Shown: in pieces, positions 2-15,135 of the stretch
Layout of the letters: every line of letters begins with the position of its first letter
How positions within the stretch are numbered: position 1 is the first letter of the stretch
Assembly (NCBI GenBank): GCA_902762855.1
Contig: CACWPR010000016.1
Span: forward strand, 1-35,269
Source: Ruminococcus flavefaciens
GTDB taxonomy: Bacteria > Bacillota > Clostridia > Oscillospirales > Ruminococcaceae
Direction: 5' to 3'
Length of the DNA: 35,269 nucleotides
Notes under the pieces: generated by a model
Told to the model about the DNA's origin: nothing
Databases searched by the model: none
Seen by the model: the letters and a program-made list of their open reading frames with translations, nothing else
Position numbers and translations under genes: made by a program

Positions 2-316
2 ACAGATCCGCTGAACTGCGAATACGCTTCGCACAGTCTGTTTCCGCAGCTGATAGTCAGTATCTCACTGGAAGATCAGGATACATGGCAGATAGACGGC
101 AGTCAGACTTACATCGGCAGAGAATGTACAGCCGTGAGCGGCAAGGACGGCATTTTTTCAGCACTTATCGACGCTAAGACAGGAGTGCTTCTGAAATATG
201 TTTCTTACGATGAAAAGGGCGAGATAAGCGGATATATCTGCGTTCAGAGCATTGCATTCGACGATGAAGCGGACGATGTTCGCAAGTTCGATTTTACGGA
301 AAGTGAGGCTGATTAA
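2..316 (+). CDS. 3' end of an unrecognised, probably secreted protein (partial)
   Basis: The reading frame is open from the first bases of the window to TAA at 314-316, so the gene begins upstream. About 104 C-terminal residues are visible. They contain alternating beta-type segments: a stretch reading YIGREC near residue 39, then a segment ending DAKTGVLLKY, then an acidic tail. This pattern (ligand shell, cysteine, 'D..TG..L.Y') loosely resembles the LolA/RseB-like fold found in lipoproteins and anti-sigma-linked proteins, but the similarity is too weak for a name. The stop is followed directly by the ATG of the next lipoprotein gene (TAAATG), so the two are probably one transcription unit with coupled translation. 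Confidence 0.6.
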   Translation, partial: TDPLNCEYASHSLFPQLIVSISLEDQDTWQIDGSQTYIGRECTAVSGKDGIFSALIDAKTGVLLKYVSYDEKGEISGYICVQSIAFDDEADDVRKFDFTESEAD

Positions 317-2422
317 ATGAAAAGGATAGCTTCATTCGCAATTGCAGTTATCACGCTTCTATCTGCTGTATCTTGCAGCTCTGCCAGTGAAAAAAGCAAC
401 AGTACATCAAATAAAGCGGCAAATGTAATAACTGATAAGTCGCGTATTTTTAAGAGGTCAGAGCTTCCGTTCCCCGATAAGCTGAACATTATAACAGATA
501 TACTATATGATGAAAAAACGGAAAAAGTCTGCATTATCGGACAGAGCGGGAGTGGTGAAACGTTATGCTGCTCGACTGACAGCAGCTTTTCAATGTACAA
601 ATACGCTGACCTTGGCATACAGAGCGGAACTGAGAACAGTGCAGTGTATTTATTGGCTGACGGAACGCTCTATGCTCTCTGCACACAAATCAAATATGCG
701 GACGGTGATTTTACCGACACTGAATACACATATAAGCTGAACACTTACGATGACGGTTTCAATTTGGTATCGTCTGCAAATATTGAGAATGTGGAACAAT
801 ACTTTAATGAAAACGGTTCTGGACAGGCTATAAGTCTGCATATGGCTAAGGACAATGGTTTTGTTGCAGAAATTGGTGCACAGTATGTGACTATTACCCC
901 TGATGGCAGGATGACAGGTGCAACACCACGTGAAAAGGACGATGAACTTGGTATCGTTGATATGATAGAGAATACGGGAAAATATTCATATTATTATAAT
1001 GATAATACAGCCTTTTACGGCGTAAAGTCCGATAAAAGCAGGGAAAAGCTCATTGACTTTGCAAATTCCGGACTTAGCGAGGTTAGGTGCATCGCTCCGT
1101 TAGCCGATGAAGAATTTGTCTGCGCTATCGGCAGTAAGCTGTACAGGCTCTCCGAGAGAGACGCTGATGATTTGGCGGAAATCAAAGAAATAACACTCGC
1201 TGTTGCTCTCAATATCGACAGCATACAGCCAATGATAGCAGATTTCAACTCGGGCAGCAATCTTTACAGGGTAAATGTCAAAAACTATTCCGACGGACAC
1301 GAGCACACTATTGAAGGTTTTGAAAGTGCTGCACACGATCTTGAAATGGATATAATTTCAGGAAATGCTCCTGATATGGTCTGGCTCGATACAAATGAGA
1401 CGGAAAAACTGGCTTCAAAGGGTGCATTTACGGACTTATATGAGCTTATGGATAGCGACACAAGGTTTACAAGGGATGCTTTTCTGCCGAATTATCTGGA
1501 AGCCGCTGAGACTGACGGCCATCTTTATTCTATAACTCCCACATTCATGATAAGAACTATGGCTGCAAAGTCGAAATTTGTTGATAAGGAGAACTGGACT
1601 TTTGATGAATTCAAGTCAGCTTATGAGTCACGTCCTGACGGTATGGAGTTATTTGAAACAGCCAATAACAGGAATGCAGTTTTCGACAGGCTTTCAAACT
1701 CCAGAGCTGACTTCATTGACCTGACTACACATACCTGTTCATTTGATTCGCAGGAGTTTATTGATATGCTTGAATTTGCAGGACAGTTCCCGGGCGTGGA
1801 CGAATATGCATGGGAACAGTGCTCATGCAGAAATGATACGGCTCTGCTGAGTGATATGTACTTTTCCTCTTTCAGAGATATAAATGTGCAGAAGCAGTCA
1901 GTATTTGGCGAGGCTATAACATTTGTGGGAGCTCCGTCCGCTGACGGAAAAGGCTCTGTCATGCTGCCGTCAAATCAGTTTGCAATTATGGATACTTCAG
2001 ATAATAAGGAAGGTGCGTGGGAGTTTATCAAGCTGTTTCTTGCTGATGAATGCTACAATGGGAATCCGGATGGTATCCCTGTTACCGAAAACGGATTAAA
2101 AAAGGTTATGGAATCCGCTCTTGAACCGCCATTTTATTACGATGAGCTGAACGGCAATAAAAAGGTATATATGGACGAAACAGGTATGGATTCATATTCA
2201 AATGAACAGATAAAGATAACTCCTATGACTGATGATGAGCAGAAGAGATACGAGCAGTTTGTCCGCAGCGTCCGAAGGATATCCTCGGGAAATACAGAGC
2301 TCGCTATTAGCTCTATAATCTCCGAGGAAACGGAATACTATTTTGCAGGAGAACATTCTGCCAAGCAATGCGCTGAGATGATACAGAACCGTGTATCTAT
2401 ACTGCTAAGTGAACAATCGTGA
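317..2422 (+). CDS. Extracellular solute-binding lipoprotein with an extra N-terminal domain
   Basis: A 701-aa lipoprotein. The N-terminus has a short basic start, a hydrophobic core and a lipobox ending SAVSC (Cys20), so it should be lipidated and held on the outer face of the membrane. Residues about 45-285 look like repeated beta-strand blades with no obvious family. Residues about 290-690 look like a family 1 solute-binding protein: ITLAVALN, then IADFNSGSNLYRVNV, then DMVWLD, and later PSNQFAIMDTSDNKEGAWEFIKLF. Such proteins usually feed carbohydrate ABC importers, but no permease lies in this window, so the ligand is unknown. It is longer than the usual 400-450 aa because of the N-terminal half. 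Its start touches the upstream stop. The codons look more A/T-rich than those of the rest of the window. Confidence 0.8.
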   Translation: MKRIASFAIAVITLLSAVSCSSASEKSNSTSNKAANVITDKSRIFKRSELPFPDKLNIITDILYDEKTEKVCIIGQSGSGETLCCSTDSSFSMYKYADLGIQSGTENSAVYLLADGTLYALCTQIKYADGDFTDTEYTYKLNTYDDGFNLVSSANIENVEQYFNENGSGQAISLHMAKDNGFVAEIGAQYVTITPDGRMTGATPREKDDELGIVDMIENTGKYSYYYNDNTAFYGVKSDKSREKLIDFANSGLSEVRCIAPLADEEFVCAIGSKLYRLSERDADDLAEIKEITLAVALNIDSIQPMIADFNSGSNLYRVNVKNYSDGHEHTIEGFESAAHDLEMDIISGNAPDMVWLDTNETEKLASKGAFTDLYELMDSDTRFTRDAFLPNYLEAAETDGHLYSITPTFMIRTMAAKSKFVDKENWTFDEFKSAYESRPDGMELFETANNRNAVFDRLSNSRADFIDLTTHTCSFDSQEFIDMLEFAGQFPGVDEYAWEQCSCRNDTALLSDMYFSSFRDINVQKQSVFGEAITFVGAPSADGKGSVMLPSNQFAIMDTSDNKEGAWEFIKLFLADECYNGNPDGIPVTENGLKKVMESALEPPFYYDELNGNKKVYMDETGMDSYSNEQIKITPMTDDEQKRYEQFVRSVRRISSGNTELAISSIISEETEYYFAGEHSAKQCAEMIQNRVSILLSEQS

Positions 2423-2430
2423 ATACCAGA

Positions 2431-2462
2431 ACAGAGGCACTCGTCTGAGTGCCTCTGTTTTT
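2431..2462 (+). terminator. Rho-independent terminator of the solute-binding lipoprotein gene
   Basis: A perfect 12-bp inverted repeat (2431-2442 and 2447-2458) with a four-base loop is followed by a run of T. It lies 8 bases after the lipoprotein stop. It faces the end of pfkA on the other strand and could weakly stop that transcript too, but the minus-strand side has no T-rich tail. Confidence 0.9.
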
Positions 2463-2541
2463 AGTCCTATTCGGTTTGGTTGTTCAATTGTTCCGCTAAG
2501 AGTAGCACGCATATGTGTGCCCTTATTGTTCTTTCAATTTC

Positions 2542-3504
2542 TCAGAATGCTATCTGCTCTGCGATGTGGTGAAGCTCCTCATCATAGGGCTTCTTCATGG
2601 AGAGTGCCTCCTGGATGTCATAGTCAACTATCTTGCTGTCCTTGATGCCGACAACTCTGTTGCCGATGCCCTGCTCAAGGAGCTCAACAGCGTAGTGACC
2701 CATTCTTGTAGCCTCAACTCTGTCTCTGAGAGTAGGATTTCCGCCTCTCTGAACGTGGCCGAGGATAGTAGCTCTTGCCTCGATGTGAGTCTTTTCCTGG
2801 AGAGCAGTTGCTATCTCCTGGGAGTGTCCCACGCCCTCAGCAACGATAACTACGAAGTTCTGCTTGCCCTTTGCCTTCTTCTCAAGCATTGTCTTAGCGA
2901 TAGCGTCAAGGTCGTAGGGAACTTCCTTTGTGATTATATCTGTAGCGCCGCAGGCGATACCTGTATTTACTGCGATATGTCCTGCACCACGGCCCATTAC
3001 CTCAACAACAGAGCATCTGTCGTGGGACTGGGATGTGTCACGGAGCTTGTCTACGAGCTCCATAGCTGTATTCATAGCTGTATCGAATCCGATAGTGTAG
3101 TCTGTGCAGGCGATGTCGTTGTCGATAGTTCCGGGGATACCGATGCAGAGCATACCCTGTGCAGAAAGGTCAGCAGCACCTCTGAAAGAGCCGTCGCCGC
3201 CGATAACTACCAGGCCTTCGATGCCCAGTTCATCGCACTTTGCCTTGCCCTTTGCAACGCCCTCTGCGGTTCTGAATTCGGGGCATCTTGCGGTATAAAG
3301 GATAGTACCGCCTCTATGGATGATGTCGGATACACTTCTCTCGTCCATGGGGAAAATATCACCGGTGATGAGTCCCATATAACCTCTGCGGATACCGTAG
3401 ACCTCCATGCCCTTGCTGATAGCTGTTCTAACAACTGCTCTTACAGCGGCATTCATTCCAGGAGCGTCTCCTCCGCTTGTCAATACACCGATCTTCTTAA
3501 TCAT
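2542..3504 (-). CDS. pfkA: ATP-dependent 6-phosphofructokinase
   Basis: A 320-aa enzyme that phosphorylates fructose 6-phosphate to fructose 1,6-bisphosphate, the committed step of glycolysis. The N-terminus MIKKIGVLTSGGDAPGMNAA is the classic PfkA opening. GGDGSFRGA carries the glycine typical of ATP-using rather than pyrophosphate-using enzymes (which have GGDD). PGTIDNDIACTDYTIGFDTA holds the catalytic TIDND loop. The length fits bacterial PfkA (about 320 aa). I chose the ATG at 3504 because a GGAGA site lies 7 bases upstream; a longer frame to 3531 has no such support. It is the last gene of the rpe-to-pfkA cluster and also has its own promoter at 3583-3611. A dnaE-pfkA order is common in Firmicutes. 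Confidence 0.97.
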   Translation of the reverse strand: MIKKIGVLTSGGDAPGMNAAVRAVVRTAISKGMEVYGIRRGYMGLITGDIFPMDERSVSDIIHRGGTILYTARCPEFRTAEGVAKGKAKCDELGIEGLVVIGGDGSFRGAADLSAQGMLCIGIPGTIDNDIACTDYTIGFDTAMNTAMELVDKLRDTSQSHDRCSVVEVMGRGAGHIAVNTGIACGATDIITKEVPYDLDAIAKTMLEKKAKGKQNFVVIVAEGVGHSQEIATALQEKTHIEARATILGHVQRGGNPTLRDRVEATRMGHYAVELLEQGIGNRVVGIKDSKIVDYDIQEALSMKKPYDEELHHIAEQIAF

Positions 3505-3582
3505 ACATATTCTCCATTCTGCCCTTGGCATATATTATTTAACTTCCAGCGTCATTGCTGAAGCCTAATTCCATACATTTAT

Positions 3583-3611
3583 ATTTTACTACTTTGTAGA
3601 AATATTGTCAA
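3583..3611 (-). promoter_or_regulatory. Sigma-A type promoter for pfkA
   Basis: On the minus strand TTGACA (3606-3611) is followed after exactly 17 bases by TAAAAT (3583-3588). It lies in the 153-bp gap between dnaE and pfkA, giving a leader of about 70 bases before the pfkA ATG. This allows pfkA to be transcribed apart from the long upstream cluster. Confidence 0.75.
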
Positions 3612-3657
3612 GTGTATTTCGGCTTTTTTTTCGATTATTTTTACTCCCTGCCCCAGA

Positions 3658-6600
3658 CTACCGGATAAGGCCGATATTTCCGGCTCCGAAAGCCTCGGAA
3701 AGTGCCTTGTATGACTCTCCGCTGACCTCCAGTGAAAGGCCGGACTTAGGCATCAGGGTCTTTTTCATGTCAGTGAGGTAGAAGCAGACCCTCGTATCTC
3801 CACGGAATTGTCCGCATATTCGGCTGACCTCCGGGAGGATGTCCCTGTCTGAAGGAGTCTTTATGCAGAGCTTCATGTTCGAGACGAACCTCGGCAGCTC
3901 CTTTTCGGACACTATTGAGCCGCAGACTACCGTCACGCTGTCGTCCTTCACCGATATTTTGCCGGTAATGAGCAGGATGCTCCCCTCTTTCAGCTTTGGA
4001 CCTGACATTGCGTAGAGGTCCGGGAACACCACGCACTCCGTTTCTCCGGAGCTGTCTGATGCGGTGATGAAGGCCATTCTCTCGTTCCGGCGTGTCATGT
4101 GGAGCTTCTGTTCCTGCAAGGTACACAGAGTTCTGACCTCCTGGCCGTCCCTGAGACCGTTCAGGCTGTTTATGTCCTTCATCAGACTGGTCCTCAGGAG
4201 TGCTGCGACGTAGCTGTACTCCCCGGTGGGGTCTCCGCTCAGGTACATTCCTGCGGCTTCCTTTTCCATTGCAAGGAGCTCCCGGCTGCTGTACTCCGGC
4301 ACCGGCATGATGCGTATGTCCATGCCGTACTGCTCGGAAAGTCCGAAGAGACCAAGCTGTCCCTCCATGACTCCCCGTCCCTCTGCGGAGACAGCAGTCA
4401 TTATCATCTCGTAATTCTCAGTCATCTGACGGCGGTTGAGTCCCAGACCGTCAAAGGCTCCGGCCTTGATGAGGTTCTCAAGAGCCTTCTTGTTCAGCTC
4501 CCTGCCTTCAAGACGCTCGCAGAAGTCCTGGAGGCTGCGGAAGGGACCGTTCTCAGTCCTTTCTGCGATTATCCTGTCAGCAAGTCCGCTGCCTGCGTTC
4601 TTTATGGCAAGGAGTCCGAAATACATCTTTCCCTCGGTGAAGGTGAACCCCTTCATACTGCGGTTTATGTCCGGGCGGAGCACCTCGATGCCTGCGCTCC
4701 TGCATACGCTGATGTACTCAGCCAGCTTGCCTGTGGCCGACATGACACTGGACATCAGTGCCGCCATATATATCCCTCTGTAGTGGTATTTCAGGTAGGC
4801 TGTCTGGTAAGAAAGGTAGGAGTAGGCCGCTGCATGGGACTTGTTGAATGCGTAGGATGCAAAGCTGACCATTTCGTCGAAGATAAGGTCAGCAGTCTCC
4901 TTCGGGATGCCGTTCTCGGCCGCTCCCTTTACAAAGCTGTCACGCTCCTTCAGCATGACGTCGTGCTTCTTCTTGGCCATTGCCCTGCGGACTATGTCTG
5001 CGTGTCCGTAGGAGTAACCGGCTATTTTCCGGCATATCTCCATGACCTGCTCCTGGTAGACCATTACCCCGTAGGTGTCCCTGAGGATGTTCTCCAGCAG
5101 AGGATGCTTGTACTTTATCCTGTCCGGGTGCTTTTTGTTCTCGATATACTCCGGAATGGACTTCATGGGTCCCGGACGGTACAGTGACATGACAACTATA
5201 AGGTCCTCCAGCCGCTCCGGAGAAAGCTCCATGAGCCGCTGGGTTATGCCCTCGCTCTCGAACTGGAAAACTCCGGCAGTGTCTCCCTTGGCGAGCATGG
5301 AGTAAACGTCCGGGTCGTCAACGGGTATTGATGAGATGTCAAAGTCCGGGTCTGTCCGGCGGATGCCGTTCACTGCATCCCGGATGACCGTCAGGTTGCG
5401 GAGTCCGAGAAAGTCCATTTTCAGCAGTCCGAGAGACTCCAGCACCGTCATCGTGTACTGGGTCACAACTGTATTGTCGTTCCTTTGCAGAGGCACAAGG
5501 TCACTGAGGGGAACTGCCGAGATGACCACTCCTGCCGCATGGGTGGAGGCATGGCGGGGCATACCCTCCAGCTTCATGGCCATATCCAGAAGCTCCCGGA
5601 CCGTTCTGTCTGTCTCGTACAGCATTTTCAGGTCCGGAGAGGTTTTCAGAGCCTCCCTCAGGTCGGCCTTGGGGTCTATGAGCTTTGCCGCCCGGTCGCA
5701 GATGTTGTAGGGCACGCTCATCACACGGCCGACGTCCCGGACTGCCGCTCTCGCTTTCAGGGTATCGAAGGCAATTATCTCCGAAACATAGTCCTCTCCG
5801 TACTTCCTTACCACGTAGTCCTTGACGCTCTGGCGGCCCTCGATGCAGAAGTCTATGTCGAAGTCCGGCATACTCACTCTCTCAGGGTTGAGAAACCGCT
5901 CGAACAGCAGGTTGAACCTTATCGGGTCGATGCCTGTTATCCCTATGCAGTAGGCGCAGAGACTTCCGGCTCCGGAGCCCCTTCCGGGCCCCACAGGGAC
6001 GTTGTGCTCACGGGCATACTTTATAAAGTCCCAGACGATGAGGTAGTAGTCGGTGTAGCCCATTCTCGTTATCACAGAAAGCTCGTATTCAAGCCTTTCT
6101 TTTACCTCAGCCGCCGGAGCGGCTCCGTATCTTTCATACATTCCCTTCCGGCAGAGCTCCCGGAACCAGGCCTGGTTGTCGGTGACTCCCTCTATGGTGA
6201 ACTTAGGGAGCTTGATGCTGCCGAACTCAAATTCCACATTGCATCTTTCGGCTATCACTGCGGTATTCGTTACTGCCTCCGGGCGGGCTCTGAAAAGCTC
6301 CGCCATTTCGCCGGCAGATTTAAGGTAGAATTCCTTTGTCTCAAAGCTCATAGGGTTCGGCTCGCCCAGTATCTTTCCGGTCTGGATGCATATGAGAACG
6401 TTCTGCATCTCTGCGTCCTCCCGGCGGATATAGTGGCAGTCATTGGTAGCCGCAAGGGGGATGTCCAGCTCTGCTGACAGCTTGTACAGCAGTGGAAGCA
6501 CCTTCAGCTCGTCTGCGATGCCGTGGTTCTGGACCTCGATGAAGTAGTTCCCCCGGCCGAAAATGTCAAGGTAAGCAAGTGCAGTCTCCCGTGCGCCCTC

Positions 6601-7984: not shown

Positions 7985-8857
7985 TCAGAATTTTTTATCC
8001 TTGGTTATGTCACGGTGATACTTCTGCACCCTGTACTCCTTTTCGCTGAGGTGCTTTGCAATGAGCTCTGCAAAGGTTATGGAGCGGTGCTTTCCGCCTG
8101 TACAGCCAAAGGCTATGACGAGCTGGCTCTTTCCCTCGTGGACGTAAAGGGGTATCAGGTAGTCGATAAGGTCACAGAGCTTTCCGAAGAGCACCTGTGA
8201 CTGCTCAAAGCTCATAACGTAGTCCCTGACACAGCTCTCACATCCTGTATGGCTGCGGAGCTCGTCTATGTAGTAGGGATTCGGCAGGCATCTTACGTCA
8301 AATACCAGGTCACTGTCTGTGGCAACTCCGTACTTGAAGCCGAAGGACATTACCTTGATGAGAAGGGAATCGGAGTCCTTCTCCAGGAAGATGTTCTTCA
8401 CCTGTTCCTTGAGCTGTGAGGAGGTGAGTGCGGTGGTCTCAATGAAATAGTCAGCTATCTCCCTGAGCTGGGCGAGCTGGCCGGCCTCGTACTCTATGGC
8501 CTCCAGTATGTTTCCGCTGAACTTCTCCTGTAGAGGATGCTTGCGGCGGGTCTCCTTGTACCTCTTCACAAGCACCTCATGGGATGCGTCAACGAAGAGG
8601 ACCTTCACGTCCACATCGTTCTCATCTCTCAGCTCCTGCCAGGAGTGGAAAATCTCCGTGAACATATCTCCGGTCCTTATGTCTACTGCCACTGCCACCT
8701 TGGATATCTCGCTCTCAGACTGGCGGCAGAGGTCAACGAATTTTGAAATGAGCTTTGGAGGGATATTGTCTATGCAATAGTAGCCTATATCCTCCATGAC
8801 GTCCATGACGCTTGACTTTCCTGCGCCGGACATTCCTGTAACTATCAAAAGCTGCAT
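7985..8857 (-). CDS. rapZ: RapZ/YvcJ-family P-loop nucleotide-binding protein
   Basis: A 290-aa protein starting MQLLIVTGMSGAGKSS, whose P-loop sits at residues 8-16. The C-terminal half carries FGCTGGKHRS near residue 252-259, the family signature. In E. coli RapZ is an RNA-binding adaptor controlling glucosamine-6-phosphate synthase. In B. subtilis YvcJ hydrolyses GTP and is linked to competence; the Firmicute role is less clear. I chose the ATG at 8857 because TCGGAGGAAATT precedes it; the frame extends to 8929 without a binding site. The gene lies 22 bases after murB and its stop is just before the whiA ribosome binding site. The rapZ-whiA pair is widely conserved in Firmicutes. Confidence 0.95.
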   Translation of the reverse strand: MQLLIVTGMSGAGKSSVMDVMEDIGYYCIDNIPPKLISKFVDLCRQSESEISKVAVAVDIRTGDMFTEIFHSWQELRDENDVDVKVLFVDASHEVLVKRYKETRRKHPLQEKFSGNILEAIEYEAGQLAQLREIADYFIETTALTSSQLKEQVKNIFLEKDSDSLLIKVMSFGFKYGVATDSDLVFDVRCLPNPYYIDELRSHTGCESCVRDYVMSFEQSQVLFGKLCDLIDYLIPLYVHEGKSQLVIAFGCTGGKHRSITFAELIAKHLSEKEYRVQKYHRDITKDKKF

Positions 8858-8879
8858 AATTTCCTCCGATTTACGGGTC

Positions 8880-9785
8880 TTATTTGAGGATGACCGGTTC
8901 AAGCTCCAGCTTGTAGCCTGTCTTTTCACGGACTATATCCTGTACCTTTGAGCAGAGCTCAAGGACGTCGGCACAGGTGGCATAGCCTTTATTGATGACG
9001 AATCCGCTGTGCTTTTCGCTGACCATAGCTCCTCCGCAGCTCATGCCTTTCAGTCCGCACTGCTCAATGAGGAGGGAGGCGTAGCTGCCCTCCGGACGCT
9101 TGAAGGTGCTTCCTGCGCTGGGGTAGTCAAGAGGCTGCTTGGAGCTGCGCTTGCCCATGCACTCGTTCATTGCCGACTTGATAGTGTCCGGGTCCCCTTC
9201 TGTCAGCTTCATGGTAACGGACGTTATCACGCAGCCGGAACCGGAAAATACGCTGTGTCTGTAGGAGAGCTCCATGTCCTCAGCGCTTATGCTGCGGATA
9301 TTGCAGTCATTGTCGATATACTCAGCAGACACCACGATGTCCTTCATCTCGCTGCCGTAGGCTCCGGCATTCATGTAGAGTGCTCCGCCAACTGTTCCGG
9401 GGATGCCGAAAAGGTTCTCCATACCGCTGAGTCCGGACTGCTGTGCGTGTACGCAGGCAGATGCAAGAAGAGCTCCGGCATCGCAGCGGATAGTGGTGCC
9501 GTCGATGCTTATGGAGGCAAAGTCGCTGCCGAAGAGGAGTATCACTCCGTCAAAGCCTTCGTCTGCTGCGATAACGTTGCTGCCTCGTCCGAGGATGCCG
9601 TATCTGACGGAATTCTCCTTCATGTATCTCATCAGCTCTGCTGCGGACTCTGCCGAATTAACGCTTATGAGTGCTCTGCACGGACCTCCGAAGCGGAAGG
9701 TCACATATTCGCTGAGCGGACATTCAGGTGTGATGCGGCAGCCGAGTCTTTCGCATAGCTGAGTCAATGAGTTCATATCTATCAT
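8880..9785 (-). CDS. murB: UDP-N-acetylenolpyruvoylglucosamine reductase
   Basis: A 301-aa FAD enzyme that reduces UDP-GlcNAc-enolpyruvate to UDP-MurNAc in cytoplasmic peptidoglycan precursor synthesis. Visible motifs: the FAD-binding GRGSNVIAADEGFDGVIL, GIPGTVGGALYMNAGAYGSE, YRHSVF, and PSAGSTFKRPEG with the serine that donates the proton in this family. The C-terminal GLKGMSCGGAMVSEKHSGFV matches the usual substrate-binding end. Length and layout fit the shorter (type II) MurB of Firmicutes. The start at 9785 follows AGGGGGAAACAA; a Met four codons later is possible. It lies 52 bases after hprK. Confidence 0.95.
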   Translation of the reverse strand: MIDMNSLTQLCERLGCRITPECPLSEYVTFRFGGPCRALISVNSAESAAELMRYMKENSVRYGILGRGSNVIAADEGFDGVILLFGSDFASISIDGTTIRCDAGALLASACVHAQQSGLSGMENLFGIPGTVGGALYMNAGAYGSEMKDIVVSAEYIDNDCNIRSISAEDMELSYRHSVFSGSGCVITSVTMKLTEGDPDTIKSAMNECMGKRSSKQPLDYPSAGSTFKRPEGSYASLLIEQCGLKGMSCGGAMVSEKHSGFVINKGYATCADVLELCSKVQDIVREKTGYKLELEPVILK

Positions 9786-9837: not shown

Positions 9838-10797
9838 TCAGAAAGCCTCGTAGTCACGGACTATTTCCTTTGCGTCGGACTCCATTCCCAGACGGTTAAG
9901 GAGCTCCTGTGCGGCATTGTAGCCCATTTTCTTCTGCCTGTTGTTCATAGCTGCAACTTCGAGGATAACAGCCAGATTTCGGCCGGGCTTTACGGGTATC
10001 GTAAGTGAGGGCACCTTTACGCCGAGAAGGCTGACGTACTCTGTGTCAACACCCATTCTGTCGTATATCTTTTCGGGGTTCCACTGTTCGAGCTCCACTA
10101 CAAGGTCCAGCTTTTCAGTCATCTTTACAGCACCGATACCGAAGAGGCGGCGGGCATTGATGATGCCTATGCCTCTGAGCTCAAGGAAGTGGCGGATGTT
10201 GTCCGGGGAGCTTCCCACAAGGCTGATATTCGATACCTTTCTTATCTCTACCGCATCGTCTGCAACAAGGCGGTGTCCACGCTTTACCAGCTCGATAGCA
10301 GTCTCGCTCTTGCCGACGCCGGACTCTCCTGTGATGAACACACCTTCACCGTATATCTCGATGAGTACACCGTGGCGGGTTATCCTGGGAGCAAGAGTCA
10401 GGTTGAGGAAGGCGATGAGTCCGGACATGAAGTTGGAAGTGCTCTCCTTGCTTCTCAGAAGGGGCACCTCGTACTCCTTTGCAAGCTCCAGCATCTCTGC
10501 GAAATACGGGAGCTCTCTTGATATGATAAGAGCCGGTATCCTCTGTGCGAACAGGAGCTGGAGCCTCTCACGGCGGGTCTTTTCGTCCAGAGTGGACAGG
10601 TATGCGAACTCCATTTTTCCTATTATCTGGATGCGCTCCGGGTTGAAGTACTCATAGAATCCCATGAGCTGGAGACCGGGTCTGTTGACGTCGTTCTCGT
10701 CTATCATGACTTCACTTGCGTCCTTGTGGATGTATATGACTTCCAGTTTGAATTCTTCTACTATCCTCTGAAGGGATACCTTGAAATTTTCTGCCAT
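9838..10797 (-). CDS. hprK: HPr(Ser) kinase/phosphorylase
   Basis: A 319-aa bifunctional enzyme that phosphorylates and dephosphorylates Ser46 of HPr or Crh, the sensor step of carbon catabolite control in Firmicutes. The P-loop GESGVGKSE is near residue 157, followed by LVADDAVEI. The C-terminal signature VPSLTIPVKPGRNLAVILEVAAMNN is present. The ATG at 10797 is preferred over 10809 because GGAG lies 6-7 bases before it, whereas the earlier ATG has its GGAGA immediately adjacent. No PTS gene is in the window, so its partner HPr must be elsewhere. Confidence 0.96.
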   Translation of the reverse strand: MAENFKVSLQRIVEEFKLEVIYIHKDASEVMIDENDVNRPGLQLMGFYEYFNPERIQIIGKMEFAYLSTLDEKTRRERLQLLFAQRIPALIISRELPYFAEMLELAKEYEVPLLRSKESTSNFMSGLIAFLNLTLAPRITRHGVLIEIYGEGVFITGESGVGKSETAIELVKRGHRLVADDAVEIRKVSNISLVGSSPDNIRHFLELRGIGIINARRLFGIGAVKMTEKLDLVVELEQWNPEKIYDRMGVDTEYVSLLGVKVPSLTIPVKPGRNLAVILEVAAMNNRQKKMGYNAAQELLNRLGMESDAKEIVRDYEAF

Positions 10798-10850
10798 TTT
10801 ATTCTCCATTCTCCGGGCATTGCCGGACTTATTCAGGGACTTCCTCAGTT

Positions 10851-12059
10851 TCAGCCAATAACGAATGAGGTATAGCCCTTATCTGCCATTTTGTCTCTTG
10901 CGTCAAGGAGCTCCGACATATTGGATGTGCTGCCGGAAAGTCTCACAGCGACGTTGAAGTCGGAGAGGTCACCCTCTACGAGCTCCAGCATTTTTTCTGC
11001 CTTGTCCACAGGCTTTCCGCTGAATTCGTACACCGTGTCCGCTGTATAGACTCCGGAGCTTATCTCGTCAAGGTCTATGTTCAGGACCACTGTATTCACA
11101 TTCAGCAGCATCGGCTGGAGGATGTCCTTGCTGCCTTTAAGCAGGTCAGATGCGGACACCTCTATGAACATTGCAGAGCCGTTGGAAAGTATAGTGTCAT
11201 TGAACTTATTAGCGGCGGCAGTCAGAGCCATTGACCTGCCCGGTGAAGCAAGCTCCGGGTCCAGCATATTCAGGTCGCTCTCCCTGAACAGAGGGAAAAC
11301 GAAGTCCGAACAGATGACCTTCTCAAAGCCTGCCGAGGACACCTCGTCAACGATATCGTTGATATAGTTCAGCGAAGTCTGTGAGTAGGGCGAGGTCCAG
11401 GGCTTGCCGCCTGCGTTGTAGTCGTTGTCTATCCACTGCTCTCCGGTATCCGCAGTAACGTAGCCTGCGCTGCCGTCGATGACAGGGAGCATATTGTCCT
11501 TGAAGGTGCTTATCACAGCCACAGGCTTGTAGCCTGCGCTCTCAATGGGACCTGTTATCTGGTCAAGTGTCATCATGTCCTGGAAGGCCTGTGACTGAGC
11601 GGCATAGTACACGCTGCTGCTGTAATATATCAGTCCTCCGCTGACTTTCAGCGGCACCTCGATGTACTCTATCTGCTGACCGGTAGGCAGTCTTTTCAGT
11701 GCCAGAGCCAGAGTCTCCGGGGACATGAGGTCACTGTCTTTCAGTGCGGCTGCACGGTAGGTCTCAAAGTTGACGCTCTGGTGAGGGTCAACACCGTCGG
11801 GAAGAGTCACAGCAGGAACAGTCCCCTGACCGTTCTCATCAGATACGGTAGTCGTCTCAGATGAGACCGCTGTACTGTCGTCGCCTTTTTTCTTAGTGTA
11901 GTTGACGATAGGCTCAGCCACACTGTAGCCGATAAAGCCTATGCCTCCTATCAGAAGTATGGAAAGTCCCACAGAGAATGCCTTTCCCAGCGGACTTTTT
12001 CCATAGTAATTTTTTTCTTTGGTCTTGTAGATTTTCCTTCCTTTGTTCCTGAATCTCAT
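10851..12059 (-). CDS. Membrane-anchored protein resembling DUF4015 putative glycoside hydrolases
   Basis: A 402-aa protein. Residues 1-25 are basic and cytoplasmic, one membrane helix spans about 26-52, a Ser/Thr-rich linker runs to about 95, and a folded domain fills the rest. That domain has a series that looks like the DUF4015 TIM-barrel family: GYKPVAVISTFKDN, then EQWIDND, then WTSPYSQTSLNYINDIVDE, then SSAGFEKVICSDFVFP. This family is annotated as putative glycoside hydrolase but its activity is unproven. It sits on the outer face of the membrane if the helix is oriented by the positive-inside rule. The start is supported by AGGAGA. It lies 34 bases after the RnfA-like gene and 53 bases before hprK, in the same direction. 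Confidence 0.6.
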   Translation of the reverse strand: MRFRNKGRKIYKTKEKNYYGKSPLGKAFSVGLSILLIGGIGFIGYSVAEPIVNYTKKKGDDSTAVSSETTTVSDENGQGTVPAVTLPDGVDPHQSVNFETYRAAALKDSDLMSPETLALALKRLPTGQQIEYIEVPLKVSGGLIYYSSSVYYAAQSQAFQDMMTLDQITGPIESAGYKPVAVISTFKDNMLPVIDGSAGYVTADTGEQWIDNDYNAGGKPWTSPYSQTSLNYINDIVDEVSSAGFEKVICSDFVFPLFRESDLNMLDPELASPGRSMALTAAANKFNDTILSNGSAMFIEVSASDLLKGSKDILQPMLLNVNTVVLNIDLDEISSGVYTADTVYEFSGKPVDKAEKMLELVEGDLSDFNVAVRLSGSTSNMSELLDARDKMADKGYTSFVIG

Positions 12060-12093: not shown

Positions 12094-12666
12094 TTATTTG
12101 AGTGCATAAACGGCCATTGATATAATGCCAAGATATACGAGCATAGCCGGGAAACCCCTGAATGCCGCAGGTACCTTTGAGGAGTTCAGCTTGCGGTATG
12201 CCGCAGTGAGGATGAGTGCCGCAATGATGAATCCGACACCGGCCTCAAGTCCTGCTGCCATATAGCTGCCAAGGTTCCTGAGAGAGGAGTCCTCCGCAGC
12301 CCTTCCGCTGACTGTGAACAAGGTACCCATAACGGCACAGTTGTAGGCCGATATGTGTATATATTTTCTGAATTTTACAAATTTTTCCCTGCTGATAAAA
12401 TATAGTGCAGAGAGAAGGATAACATATATTATGCCCACCGACAGGGTGTAGATGAGCAGAGTGTAGTCGGCATATTTTTCCGGGAGGTTCCTGTCTGTCA
12501 GGTATGCAGCTCCGGAGCCAAGCACTGCGAAAATAGTTATGACGCAGGCTGTGCCGATGAGGTTCTTTCTGCTGCCTGAGGCTATGAACAGTGTACTTGT
12601 TCCGAGAGCCTGGGACAGTATGAGGTTAGCAGCCAGAAGGGCGATGATTTCATTTACCAGATGCAT
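12094..12666 (-). CDS. RnfA/NqrE-like membrane protein lacking one Fe-S cysteine
   Basis: A 190-aa protein with about six membrane helices. It aligns along its length with RnfA/RsxA: LAANLILSQALG near residue 11, YNCAVMGTLF near 108, and VPAAFRGFPAML near 165. In RnfA the motifs FLGLCP and TNCAVLG each supply a cysteine to the [2Fe-2S] cluster buried between RnfA and RnfE. Here the second cysteine is kept (Cys110) but the first motif reads LGTST, with Ser24 at the cysteine position. It overlaps the RnfE-like gene by 17 bases and has a GGAGGG site. The genes for RnfB, C and G are not next to it. The family is clear; the function is open. I leave the symbol empty because the redox role is doubtful. 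Confidence 0.85.
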   Translation of the reverse strand: MHLVNEIIALLAANLILSQALGTSTLFIASGSRKNLIGTACVITIFAVLGSGAAYLTDRNLPEKYADYTLLIYTLSVGIIYVILLSALYFISREKFVKFRKYIHISAYNCAVMGTLFTVSGRAAEDSSLRNLGSYMAAGLEAGVGFIIAALILTAAYRKLNSSKVPAAFRGFPAMLVYLGIISMAVYALK

Positions 12667-13282
12667 CCTGTTCCCTCCCTGCTTTACTTATATCGGGTAT
12701 CTTAGCTCTTATCCAGCGGTAAAGTCCGCACATCAGTCCAAGGAAGATGAATCCTCCGAAGGGCTGGGAAAGTCCGCTGATAAGGACGTCTGCGTCAACG
12801 ATGCGGCCGTTTATGGTGCCGTAGGCCAGGAGCTCACGGACCACTCCTGTGAGCAGCATCACGATGTCGAACCCAAGGACGTAGAATATGAGCGAGAAGA
12901 ACATCCTTGCCCGCTTCATCCGGAAGAACTTCGCCTCAGTCTGGAAAACGATGAGAGAATTCACAGCAAGCAGAGGGAAGTAGATCCCGATACGCTCGAT
13001 AGCGTCCCTGTAGAATTCATGAGTAGCCACCTTCACGGGGATGTAGATGAGGGACGAGATAAGTGCATAAATGACTATCTTCAAGGCATAGGGCAGCTTT
13101 TTCGGCACCAGTGAGGATATGAGCACTGACAGTATGGTTATCGAAGTGAACGCATAGCTGAGAGCCTCAGCGTTTTTAAGGCTGTCACCGCACATTATCA
13201 CCGGTGAGATGACCATGAGAGCTGACAGTACCGTGTTGTCTCCGAGGACACCGTCAAACACTGAATTTCTGCGGTCATTCAT
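12650..13282 (-). CDS. RnfE/NqrD-like membrane protein lacking both Fe-S cysteines
   Basis: A 210-aa polytopic protein aligning with RnfE/RsxE. GVLGDNTVLSALMVISPVIM corresponds to the region that holds LGLCP in RnfE, and YFPLLAVNSLIV corresponds to IPLIVTNCIVV. Both expected cluster cysteines are serine here (Ser26 and Ser109). A TEA follows the second motif, as in RnfE. I chose the ATG at 13282 because GGAGG is centred 9 bases upstream; this gives an 8-base overlap with the RnfD-like gene. The frame is open to 13312 but without support. It is part of the tightly packed D-E-A trio. Confidence 0.82.
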   Translation of the reverse strand: MNDRRNSVFDGVLGDNTVLSALMVISPVIMCGDSLKNAEALSYAFTSITILSVLISSLVPKKLPYALKIVIYALISSLIYIPVKVATHEFYRDAIERIGIYFPLLAVNSLIVFQTEAKFFRMKRARMFFSLIFYVLGFDIVMLLTGVVRELLAYGTINGRIVDADVLISGLSQPFGGFIFLGLMCGLYRWIRAKIPDISKAGREQDASGK

Positions 13283-14408
13283 CTTCCTCAGCCTCCTCTC
13301 CGGGTACTTCATCTGTGGAAGGAAGTTCAGTCTCAGGGACCTCAGCAGTGAGCTCCTCTATCATTTCAGAGACAGTCTCCTCCGGGTCAGGCAGCTCCAC
13401 ATCATCAGTGAGCTCCCCTTTTTCTTCCGGGACCTCCGGTCCCGGCGCAGGCTCCTGCACCGCCTGAGCCTCGTTTTCAAGGCTCTCAGCGTAGGCCAGG
13501 TCTATCTTCTTTTCAAGATTCTTTATAGCCAGGGCCGCAGGTGTAAAGAGCACTGCCACAATGACCACTGCATTTTCCTTTGCGGTGGTAAGTACCAGTA
13601 TATAGGCAAATACAGCTATGAAGAAGCCGTAGAAAAATGCAAAATAGTCACGCTTGGGAGCTATCCTCCGGTCTGCCACGATGTATATTGACGCAAAGAG
13701 CACCATATTGGTCACCAAAGTGTACTTCACGGAGTCAGAGCGTGTGCCTGCGATAGGTGTAACTGCTGCAAAGAGGACAGTCCCGGCCACTGAGCCTATG
13801 AAAGCACCGGCAGAGATGTCACGTCTGAGCATGAGCATGACTGCGGCGATGACCAGCAGAAGTATGCTGACTGCACCGGCAGGTCCGGTGAAATTGCCAA
13901 GCAGTATCTCAAAGTCGGTGTAGTCCATTTTTCCGGTGGTATTATAAATGTAGCTCGCAGAACCGGTAAGGCCCTCCGGGTCGTCAAAGATACCGGTCTT
14001 TACGTGGGGAGCCGTGTACATGAGCAGCTTCCGTCCCCAGGATGTGAGAACGAATACATAAGCTGCTGCCGCCGGCGAGAATATCATGTTCTGCCTTCCG
14101 CCGAAAATATTCTTTGCTGCCACAACTGCAAATACCGACGCTATAGCAGCGATGCGGTAGTCCATTACTGCCGGCATCATCAGAGCGATGATAAGGGCGT
14201 CAGAGGTACAGGTAAGGTCATCAGCAGAGAATTTCCGGTGCATCAGCCTGAGGCTCGCCAACTCCGCAGCAAGGGAGAATGCCACGCATACTCCACCCAG
14301 CACTACTGTCCTCATGCCGTAGTAGAAATAGGACATCAGCTCCAGAGTCACCAGAGTTATCATAAGGTCCAGCCATACTATGCGTTCTTTTCTGGCTTTT
14401 TTCAGCAT
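13275..14408 (-). CDS. RnfD/NqrB-like membrane protein with altered FMN motif and acidic tail
   Basis: A 377-aa protein with 8-10 predicted membrane helices in residues 10-290. It matches RnfD in order: a cytosolic start, SDALIIALMMPAV near residue 69, FGGRQNMIFSPAAAAYVF near 102 (RnfD has FGGLGQNxxNPA), and MVLFASIYIVADRRIAPK, the counterpart of the GAFFMATDxxTSP segment. RnfD normally carries FMN on the threonine of a D-x-x-(S/T)-G-A-T motif. The equivalent stretch, residues 145-152, reads EGLTGSAS, with Ala151 at the threonine position. Residues about 298-377 form a Glu/Pro-rich tail not usual in RnfD. The gene starts inside the end of rpe (7-base overlap). Confidence 0.82.
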   Translation of the reverse strand: MLKKARKERIVWLDLMITLVTLELMSYFYYGMRTVVLGGVCVAFSLAAELASLRLMHRKFSADDLTCTSDALIIALMMPAVMDYRIAAIASVFAVVAAKNIFGGRQNMIFSPAAAAYVFVLTSWGRKLLMYTAPHVKTGIFDDPEGLTGSASYIYNTTGKMDYTDFEILLGNFTGPAGAVSILLLVIAAVMLMLRRDISAGAFIGSVAGTVLFAAVTPIAGTRSDSVKYTLVTNMVLFASIYIVADRRIAPKRDYFAFFYGFFIAVFAYILVLTTAKENAVVIVAVLFTPAALAIKNLEKKIDLAYAESLENEAQAVQEPAPGPEVPEEKGELTDDVELPDPEETVSEMIEELTAEVPETELPSTDEVPGEEAEEDE

Positions 14409-15061
14409 ATTCCGGGATTCCTCAGCTTTCCGGCTGCATCAGCCATATTTTCTGCCCTGAACAGGTAGCTGCCTGACACAAGTACGTCGGCTCCTGCTGA
14501 GACTGCATCAGAGACAGTTACATCGTTGATGCCTCCGTCAACTTCAATGTGCATATCCATTCCGTTCTTGTCAAGATACTCTCTGAGGGTCCTGACCTTC
14601 TCCACGGTCTCCGGGATGAAGCTCTGTCCTCCGAATCCGGGCTCAACGGTCATCACAAGGACCATATCAAGCCTGTCGAGATAGGGGTAGACCTCCTCCA
14701 CGGGAGTTCCGGGCTTTACGGCAACTGCCGCTTTAGCTCCGGCGCTGATTATCTCGCCGATGACAGCTCCGGTATCGCTTTCGCTCTCAACGTGGAAGGA
14801 TATTATGTCCGCACCTGCCTCTGCAAAGCGTCTTGCATATTTCAGAGGGTCAGCGATCATCAGGTGGACGTCCAGAGTGAGGTCAGTGACCTTCCTCACC
14901 TGTTCCAGAACAGGCAGTCCATAGGTGATATTCGGGACGAACAGTCCGTCCATAACGTCGAAATGGAGCATCTCTATCCCATTTTTCTCAAGTTTTTTTA
15001 TTTCCTTTTCAAGATTCAGCATATCCGCACTGAGCACGGATGCTGACACTGAATTTTTCAC
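14402..15061 (-). CDS. rpe: Ribulose-phosphate 3-epimerase
   Basis: A 219-aa TIM barrel that interconverts ribulose 5-phosphate and xylulose 5-phosphate in the pentose phosphate pathway. Motifs: SASVLSADMLNLEKEI, LHFDVMDGLFVPNITYG, LDVHLMIADP, VMTVEPGFGGQSFI and EVDGGIN, which include the metal-binding His and Asp residues. The GTG at 15061 gives the usual family N-terminus and length, with GGAAG about 10 bases upstream. A GTG at 15085 in the same frame would add 8 residues of atypical sequence. It is the first gene of the minus-strand cluster, and its promoter lies at 15136-15164. Confidence 0.95.
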   Translation of the reverse strand: MKNSVSASVLSADMLNLEKEIKKLEKNGIEMLHFDVMDGLFVPNITYGLPVLEQVRKVTDLTLDVHLMIADPLKYARRFAEAGADIISFHVESESDTGAVIGEIISAGAKAAVAVKPGTPVEEVYPYLDRLDMVLVMTVEPGFGGQSFIPETVEKVRTLREYLDKNGMDMHIEVDGGINDVTVSDAVSAGADVLVSGSYLFRAENMADAAGKLRNPGIC

Positions 15062-15135
15062 TTTATCACTTCTTCCGGTTAACACAGCTCATACTGTCAA
15101 AGCTGGGTATCAAGGTTATTTTTTCACACACTTTT

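Follow-up and report, generated by a model that had tools for sequence, protein, structure and literature searches.

A divergent RnfD-E-A-like gene set that very probably lacks redox cofactors in Ruminococcus flavefaciens and its relatives

The window analysed here, a whole stretch of 35,269 nucleotides of Ruminococcus flavefaciens DNA (contig CACWPR010000016.1; all window coordinates refer to it), carries a module of three overlapping genes for divergent RnfD-, RnfE- and RnfA-like membrane proteins, which we call D', E' and A'; an RnfC-like protein of some relatives is called C'. The complex of D', E' and A' very probably lacks both the [2Fe-2S] cluster and the flavin of D', and we infer from the sequences that the trans-membrane electron path is gone. 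Rather than pumping electrons, the module probably works as a membrane device linked to the product of the neighbouring DUF4015-like gene, a glycosidase-like protein at the cell surface. As a tentative account, to which we give slightly less than an even chance, we regard it as a redox-dead descendant of the Rnf membrane core that likely conducts cations, or is gated by them, and serves the DUF4015-like ectodomain as a platform.

Loss of the cofactor ligands

The module and two sites within D' are located as follows.

13275..14408, minus strand: D', RnfD/NqrB-like membrane protein, 377 amino acids, without the flavin mononucleotide (FMN) site (PF03116, 124.7 bits)
13956..13976, minus strand: codons 145-151 of D', reading E-G-L-T-G-S-A in place of the FMN-threonine motif D-x-x-S-[GS]-A-T
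13671..13673, minus strand: codon of D' Asp246, retained equivalent of RnfD Asp248 (proposed Na+ site)
12650..13312, minus strand: E', RnfE/NqrD-like, 220 amino acids, with the cluster cysteines replaced by Ser36 and Ser119 (PF02508, 88.2 bits)
12094..12666, minus strand: A', RnfA/NqrE-like, 190 amino acids, with Ser24 at the first cluster cysteine and Cys110 kept (PF02508, 58.6 bits)

Judged by sequence, D', E' and A' are true homologues of RnfD, RnfE and RnfA. All three exceed the Pfam cut-offs at the positions that a first-pass annotation of this DNA had given for three overlapping RnfD/E/A-like genes, and the D' and E' profiles match chains D and E of 7zc6, while the fold of A' is assigned by Pfam alone. 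Their scores with the NCBIfam rnf subfamilies fall far under the cut-offs (79.7 against 207 for D', 60.1 against 213 for E' and 38 against 229 for A'). The predicted structure of D' (predicted local distance difference test, pLDDT, 86.5) has RnfD as its top Foldseek matches (8ahx, 9eri, 8rbq and 7zc6), and on this model D' retains the RnfD fold. D' also carries an acidic C-terminal tail of ~60 residues rich in E, P and D (13275-13460), where the model is partly of low confidence. Of the six subunits of an Rnf set (C, D, G, E, A and B), the window locus holds D, E and A alone: profile scans found no rnfB, rnfC or rnfG adjoining them, and the earlier statement that rpe lies on one side and the DUF4015-like gene and hprK on the other agrees with both the open reading frames (ORFs) and the scans.

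The genome has an intact Rnf of its own elsewhere. It contains four PF02508 matches, the window pair (88 and 58 bits) and a pair on contig C18 (225 and 193 bits), where a complete rnfC-D-G-E-A-B operon lies at 197-5049 with the ligands of D, E and A present. This intact Rnf was our reference for the ligand columns, and the residue numbering of RnfD was verified on PDB chain 7zc6_D. Passages of the C. tetanomorphum structure paper assign the intramembrane metal site to RnfA Cys25 and Cys113 and RnfE Cys26 and Cys109, place the flavin of RnfD on Thr153 with Arg130, Glu185 and Gly237 near the flavin ring, and put Asn124 and Asp248 of RnfD at riboflavin, where Asp248 may mark an Na+ site (PMC9588780); the relevant part of a review has the four RnfA/RnfE cysteines holding a [2Fe-2S] cluster (PMC12174285). 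These published passages bear out the cysteines and the flavin threonine that the first-pass annotation had named as ligands.

Aligned to the reference, A' has Ser24 and Cys110, as first read by eye, and E' has Ser36 and Ser119, which are the serines originally numbered 26 and 109 by counting from the internal Met11 of the 220-residue ORF. One of the four cluster cysteines is thus left, A' Cys110, and no other ligand is restored by the alignment, in a genome with a second, complete D/E/A set. The proposed replacement of the FMN motif also holds: residues 145-152 of D' read E-G-L-T-G-S-A-S, against D-A-V-S-S-A-T in the canonical RnfD of the genome. Tyr117, Ser150, Ala179 and Met235 stand for Arg130, Thr153, Glu185 and Gly237, respectively, and Asp246 is the equivalent of Asp248. 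The Thr153 loop is the sole place where alignments disagree, giving Ala in one and Ser in two others, but never Thr.

Close relatives were gathered by an E' alignment scan of genome contigs, the best 80 of 116 being kept; 75 of the 80 are titled Ruminococcus, including R. flavefaciens FD-1, 007c, MC2020 and ATCC 19208. Across the 81 rows of the window and these relatives, the first cysteine column of E' is Ser in 80 with one gap and the second is Ser in all 81, whereas in A' the substitution affects only the first column, with Ser in all 81 rows against Cys in all 81 at the second. Asp246 is Asp in 79 of 79 rows of this group. We considered and rejected an alignment artefact, since the reference is the genome's own Rnf and single residues are fixed over the 81 rows. 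One contig titled Alistipes sp. (L161) with a Ruminococcus-type locus is probably mislabelled or part of a mixed metagenome bin.

E-values alone fail to separate D' from RnfD, so the classes were set by geometry and ligands. The classification covered 204 loci in which D and E share a strand; 15 that have no D+E pair were left aside. D and E are adjacent in 169 of the 204 and separated by a wider gap ('with G') in 35. Both E cysteines are present in 32 of the 35 wider-gap loci; of the three others, two are the same locus in duplicate (L237/L275) and the third is L282, which resembles the module. By contrast, outside the R. flavefaciens group one or both E cysteines are missing from 84 of the 90 loci with adjacent D and E: the first is absent in 83 and the second in all 84, and the first A cysteine is found in none of the 77 rows with A'. 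The rows of this classification include a few duplicate fetches (L231/L283 and L237/L275), and the 84 module rows represent 80 distinct D sequences.

In these 84 rows, Arg130 of RnfD is never kept, and Thr153, Glu185 and Gly237 are kept in six, five and four, compared with 32, 32, 32 and 30 of the 32 canonical rows. These four residues and the Asp of the FMN motif are among the D columns that are at least 90% conserved in canonical rows but under 30% in module rows. The lost class comprises 19 of 65 columns in D', 24 of 49 in E' and 26 of 49 in A'; for D' the loss therefore extends beyond the FMN site. Many glycines and prolines are kept in at least 70% of module D rows, as are Lys109, Arg271 and Asp245 (numbering of the RnfD of the window genome). 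Residues at the columns of the four former cysteines are drawn mostly from A, S, G, T, C and P (290 of 322), and outside the genus Ala, Pro, Gly, Phe or Tyr occupy the former cluster positions in many rows.

Distribution, architecture and origin of the module

In the window the gene order is rpe–D'–E'–A'–DUF4015-like–hprK–murB–rapZ, and from rpe to murB adjoining genes overlap or lie at most about 50 bases apart. The genes around the module are the following.

14402..15085, minus strand: rpe, ribulose-phosphate 3-epimerase, overlapping D' by 7 bases (TIGR01163, 267 bits)
10851..12059, minus strand: DUF4015-like protein, 402 amino acids (PF13200, 32.7 bits with a cut-off of 27, residues 128-249)
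9838..10809, minus strand: hprK, HPr kinase/phosphorylase, 3' of the module in this genus (TIGR00679, 378 bits)
8880..9785, minus strand: murB, in the same run (PF02873, 120 bits; PF01565, 70 bits)
7985..8929, minus strand: rapZ (PF03668, 159.6 bits; PF22740, 152.1 bits)

The survey of relatives that the first-pass annotation had called for, together with the search for a separate complete rnf operon answered above, found the order rpe-D'-E'-A'-DUF4015 in 76 of the 80, with the order of hprK, murB and rapZ conserved as well. Of the other four, three have no rpe match (one of these also no D' match) and one has no DUF4015 match, which is likely due to contig ends. NG86 ratios of nonsynonymous to synonymous substitution (dN/dS) range over 0.07-0.13 for D', 0.03-0.16 for E', 0.04-0.23 for A', 0.04-0.13 for the DUF4015-like gene and 0.005-0.05 for hprK; they come from ten chosen pairs, are finite in six to eight of the ten per gene, and are rough since dS is frequently saturated. 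From these comparisons D', E' and A' look to be evolving under purifying selection.

By their PF02508 matches, the 148 genomes of the family divide into 101 with three or more, 21 with a strong pair alone, 15 with weak matches alone and 11 with no match. By these match counts the divergent set seems to be present in about 116 of 148, where it should be noted that the extra matches are shown to be divergent only at fetched loci (60 regions, some of them canonical) and that the count would also include genomes with two intact sets. The weak-only genomes are mostly less than 90% complete, with three exceptions: G102 (94% complete), which has a weak PF02508 pair, and G068 and G087, which have D and a single weak match. 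One genome of the same genus as the window (G135) has neither set. The high divergence from canonical Rnf might hint at a decaying rnf duplicate, yet open frames, dN/dS of 0.03-0.23, synteny in most relatives and recurrence across the family contradict this idea, which we consider most improbable.

Elsewhere in the order the same pattern is seen in family f5 and, sporadically, in further families. The fetched family loci take two forms, rpe-D'-E'-A'-DUF4015 and rpe-C'-D'-E'-A'-DUF4015, and C' is present in 38 of the 84 module loci. The most constant neighbours are rpe, on the upstream side, and the DUF4015-like gene, each in 43 of 58 family and order module loci, and besides these two and C' no other same-strand gene cluster exceeds seven of the 58. 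Among the 60 fetched family loci, hprK lies by the module in L036 alone, which is from the same genus. When DUF4015 served to look for the module outside the family, 74 of the 243 genomes of the class gave a match; of the 30 loci taken from this search, just the three belonging to the window's own family had E'/A' alongside.

C' keeps both 4Fe-4S motifs (CxxCxxCxxxC) in the rows checked. Two stretches that we take to hold FMN and NADH in RnfC, the GLGGAGFPT loop and YPQGAEK, are lost in 24 of 24 C' rows of families f1 and f5, whereas the RnfC of loci with G keep both, altered in L278. Module loci of f1 and f5 gave no RnfG or RnfB match, and in ten loci the space between rpe and C'/D', where a G or B might be hidden, holds at most short same-strand ORFs, save for a 232-residue ORF without a Pfam match in L041. 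This space also contains ORFs on the opposite strand that form one cluster, seen in 26 of 58 module loci (L043:6813-7511 among them); the one representative scanned is MecA-like.

A second loss appears in genus g284. There, L266 (genome G432) has prmA followed by C-D-G-E-A-B-DUF4015 with all ligands present, and L265 (G391, of the same genus as G432) has prmA followed by C-D-E-A-DUF4015 with the ligands lost, prmA being matched by PF06325 in both. In L265 the FMN Thr is replaced by Asn, the E columns read Phe and Gly and the A columns Arg and Val, with a Cys one residue before the second cysteine column of E; the RnfC loop is broken and YPQG remains. The E' of L265 (5857-7374) also has a charged, low-complexity N-terminal extension of ~290 residues that is not in the intact L266 operon. 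Four g284 genomes (G391, G408, G420 and G454, 90-98% complete) have the weak PF02508 pair only. In a tree of 122 D sequences (midpoint-rooted, with SH-aLRT support only and some long branches), a 100% branch sets apart 42 rows that comprise intact RnfD and the four ligand-less g284 D'. These four group beside L266 with 97% support, and the cofactor-less D' of f1 and f5 lie outside that branch. The g284 module looks like an in-place conversion of Rnf, independent of the main group and in another family.

Several other loci depart from the canonical form. Otherwise complete C-D-G-E-A-B operons with replaced A/E cysteines occur, in genomes that have another rnf set, at L275/L237 (G228; Gly at the second E and the first A column in L275) and at L278 (G524; Glu and Ala at the A columns); both are possible intermediates of cofactor loss. 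L269 (G546) reads C-D-(a 313-residue ORF without a Pfam match)-E-A, with an E of 20.8 bits to PF02508 and the E and A cysteines absent, and is possibly a third form of loss. In L267 and L268 (G398 and G426; family f83 of the order), C-D is followed by a 200-residue RnfB-like Fe-S protein and no E or A was found; these two genomes have no PF02508 match, yet their D score 234 and 245 bits with the D' profile.

The putative DUF4015-like partner and the proposed role of the module

The constant place of the DUF4015-like gene invites a look at its product, which we think rather likely to be a functional partner of D'E'A'. Its AlphaFold model (pLDDT 81.1, 60 sequences) has a basic N terminus, a helix at residues 23-43, a disordered linker to about residue 97 and an ordered alpha/beta (barrel) domain resembling glycosidases, which is presumed to be extracytoplasmic and membrane-anchored. 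Foldseek ranks 4s1a first, followed by the functional region of Cwp19, the hydrolase domain of PgaB and GH191 enzymes, with TM-scores of 0.39-0.51 on this query, a fold-level likeness only. The 4s1a structure is that of R. thermocellum Cthe_0052, and a sequence search with the DUF4015-like profile reaches the same protein at 95 bits. Passages on Cwp19 describe a lytic transglycosylase of peptidoglycan that carries a GHL10 domain (PMC6016235). A cell-envelope setting would fit murB and rapZ downstream, which are seen there only in this genus. Among module loci, the Asp of the family's FDYxRFP stretch, which we presume to be the active site, is kept in 15 of the 23 that have C' and in five of the 30 that do not; in the window its position is occupied by Ser, followed by Asp, so the window domain may bind glycan rather than cut it.

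Several observations weigh against the account given here, and they deserve to be stated together. The link with DUF4015 is positional and is not confined to the module, as it is also seen in two of 11 complete rnf loci. Six loci with adjacent D and E, from other orders of the phylum, keep both E cysteines (L242, L248, L251, L258, L262 and L263). Asn124, near riboflavin, is Ser111 in the window D', and some rows lack Asp248. The remaining cluster cysteine, A' Cys110, never varies within the genus and persists in 43 of the 77 rows beyond it, and further cysteines and a histidine are shared across the genus: E' Cys41 (78 of 78) and Cys195 (78 of 79), A' His104 (79 of 79), and D' Cys41 (77 of 78) and Cys67 (73 of 78). 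At two D' columns, where the window has Ser and Ala, Cys is found in 52 and 55 of the 84 other rows. Going by such shared Cys and His residues, the genus could in principle have a new metal site of its own. D' Ser150 or Ser152 could likewise be flavinylated in principle, but the residues of the FMN pocket are gone as well.

Several of these observations would suit a module that is still redox active, with other cofactors (riboflavin, heme or a cluster held via Cys110, Cys41, His104 or Ser) or with G and B borrowed from the intact operon. Cys110 together with hydroxyl residues at the other ligand sites, the genus-wide Cys41, Cys195 and His104, and the retention of the riboflavin-site residues Asn124 and Asp248, each in 65 of the 84 module rows (Asp248 is Glu in another 12), can all be read in this way. 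However, outside the genus the lost positions are often Ala, Pro, Gly, Phe or Tyr, and the genus-wide cysteines are rare there (E' Cys41 in 8 and Cys195 in 9 of 84 rows; A' His104 is His in 33 of 77). In a check for relocated ligands, A' Cys110 was the only Cys column common to the genus and the wider group. Since, in addition, the FMN site is gone and the set persists in genomes where no intact Rnf was detected, we judge continued redox activity improbable.

In the mechanism that we propose instead, an Rnf core has lost its cluster and flavin residues, and electrons would no longer cross the membrane. A cation-conducting or cation-gated D'-A'-E' platform would then hold, and perhaps move, the DUF4015-like ectodomain against the glycan of the cell envelope. 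In the relevant part of the review, the RnfA-E dimer is an alternating-access element driven by its cluster, and models place the Na+ route in RnfD/NqrB or in RnfA-E (PMC12174285). We favour the cation platform because the cluster as driver is lost and the RnfD Asp is mostly kept, and because the A/E hourglass is narrowest where the cluster used to sit, a site now filled mostly by small residues. We think it conceivable, but less likely than not, that the function includes an ion flux through D'.

Two alternatives come close to the cation platform, namely a plain scaffold and a solute channel. As a pure scaffold or regulator, D'E'A' would move nothing and would serve as an anchor or assembly partner for the DUF4015-like protein, C' or the intact Rnf. 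The presence of C' with two 4Fe-4S motifs in many loci, though there is no electron path, would be natural for a scaffold, as would the retention of fold-shaping glycines and prolines, but the retention of Asp248 would be left unexplained. The g284 genomes G391, G408, G420 and G454, as well as G102, carry the weak PF02508 pair only, and regulation of an intact Rnf therefore cannot be general. Overall, we find the scaffold somewhat unlikely.

As a solute channel or transporter, D' or A'E' would move a small molecule other than a cation, which the DUF4015-like protein would process or capture outside. The small residues at the former cluster site would allow this, and passages of the structural paper and the review liken the RnfD fold to urea and ammonium transporters (PMC9588780, PMC12174285). 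Nevertheless, the only D' Foldseek matches of that kind are not significant (RhAG, E 0.083; Amt1, E 0.32), and the neighbour counts given above reveal no substrate-linked genes, so we regard such a channel as unlikely. It would be tempting to go further and picture, by analogy, an ion-driven envelope machine, in which cation flow moves the DUF4015-like ectodomain on peptidoglycan or surface glycan as in MotAB, ExbBD and TolQR, in an unrelated fold that evolved at least twice by the stripping of electron wires from Rnf. This idea is speculative and, in our estimate, quite unlikely.

The association with DUF4015 may be older than the loss, because the gene also lies beside intact rnf genes: it is 3' of the intact operon in L274, and in L182 (G165, family f23) a DUF4015 gene with a YDYVRFP stretch adjoins rnfB.

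Relation to known systems and significance

We infer that the module is derived from Rnf without being an Rnf member by function. It shares homologous D, E and A with the Na+/H+-translocating ferredoxin:NAD+ oxidoreductase RnfCDGEAB, and the C' of relatives is homologous to RnfC. Unlike Rnf, the module locus has no RnfG or RnfB, one of four [2Fe-2S] cysteines, no FMN-Thr and a DUF4015-like gene as constant neighbour; RnfC is absent from the window locus, and the C' of relatives is without the presumed NADH/FMN loop. NqrB, NqrD and NqrE of Na+-NQR belong to the same membrane families, and the D' and E' profiles match chains B and D of 7xk3, but D' scores NqrB below RnfD, and the module misses the same cofactor ligands. 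The NQR/RNF-like systems described in passages of PMC8238504 resemble the module as partial sets with an NqrB/RnfD-type membrane domain. They differ from it by flavinylation gene clusters and an NqrF-type NAD domain (PF00175), neither of which the window module has: D' scans as PF03116 only, and no FMN-binding gene was found among the scanned window neighbours.

On the DUF4015 side, the window protein passes the PF13200 cut-off, and its model aligns with 4s1a and the Cwp19 functional region (DUF4015/GHL10). Compared with Cwp19 (TM-scores 0.49-0.55), it lacks the FDYxRFP Asp in the window and has a predicted membrane anchor and the linkage to D-E-A. Among the matches listed, the titles and opening abstracts of the open-access literature held no description of a cofactor-free Rnf set. 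The first-pass annotation had inferred a module that kept the membrane fold, lost electron transfer and may serve as a transporter or scaffold. Its first two elements find good support in the sequences, given the group-wide ligand loss, the D' model and the intact rnf elsewhere; a role as transporter or scaffold stays a conjecture.

The closest published likeness is the D-E-A gene set rnfDEA of Faecalibacterium duncaniae A2-165, which we compare by gene names alone. The relevant passages report 'two putative rnf operons (rnfDEA, rnfCDGEAB)', credit both with energy conservation and assign rnfDEA a membrane NADH:ferredoxin oxidoreductase activity, with cofactor residues unmentioned in those passages (PMC10781979). 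By analogy, the F. duncaniae rnfDEA probably belongs to the cofactor-less group.

An annotated rnf in a gut anaerobe is readily read as ion-coupled energy conservation, and the passages just cited already count at least one D-E-A set as part of Faecalibacterium energy metabolism (PMC10781979). The second set found across much of this family very probably cannot work in that way. At the same time, the module offers a natural experiment on the ion route, for which passages of the review model both RnfD and RnfA-E (PMC12174285). Because the electron path appears to be gone and the RnfD Asp is mostly kept in the module, our results suggest that the ion site and the electron path are separable.

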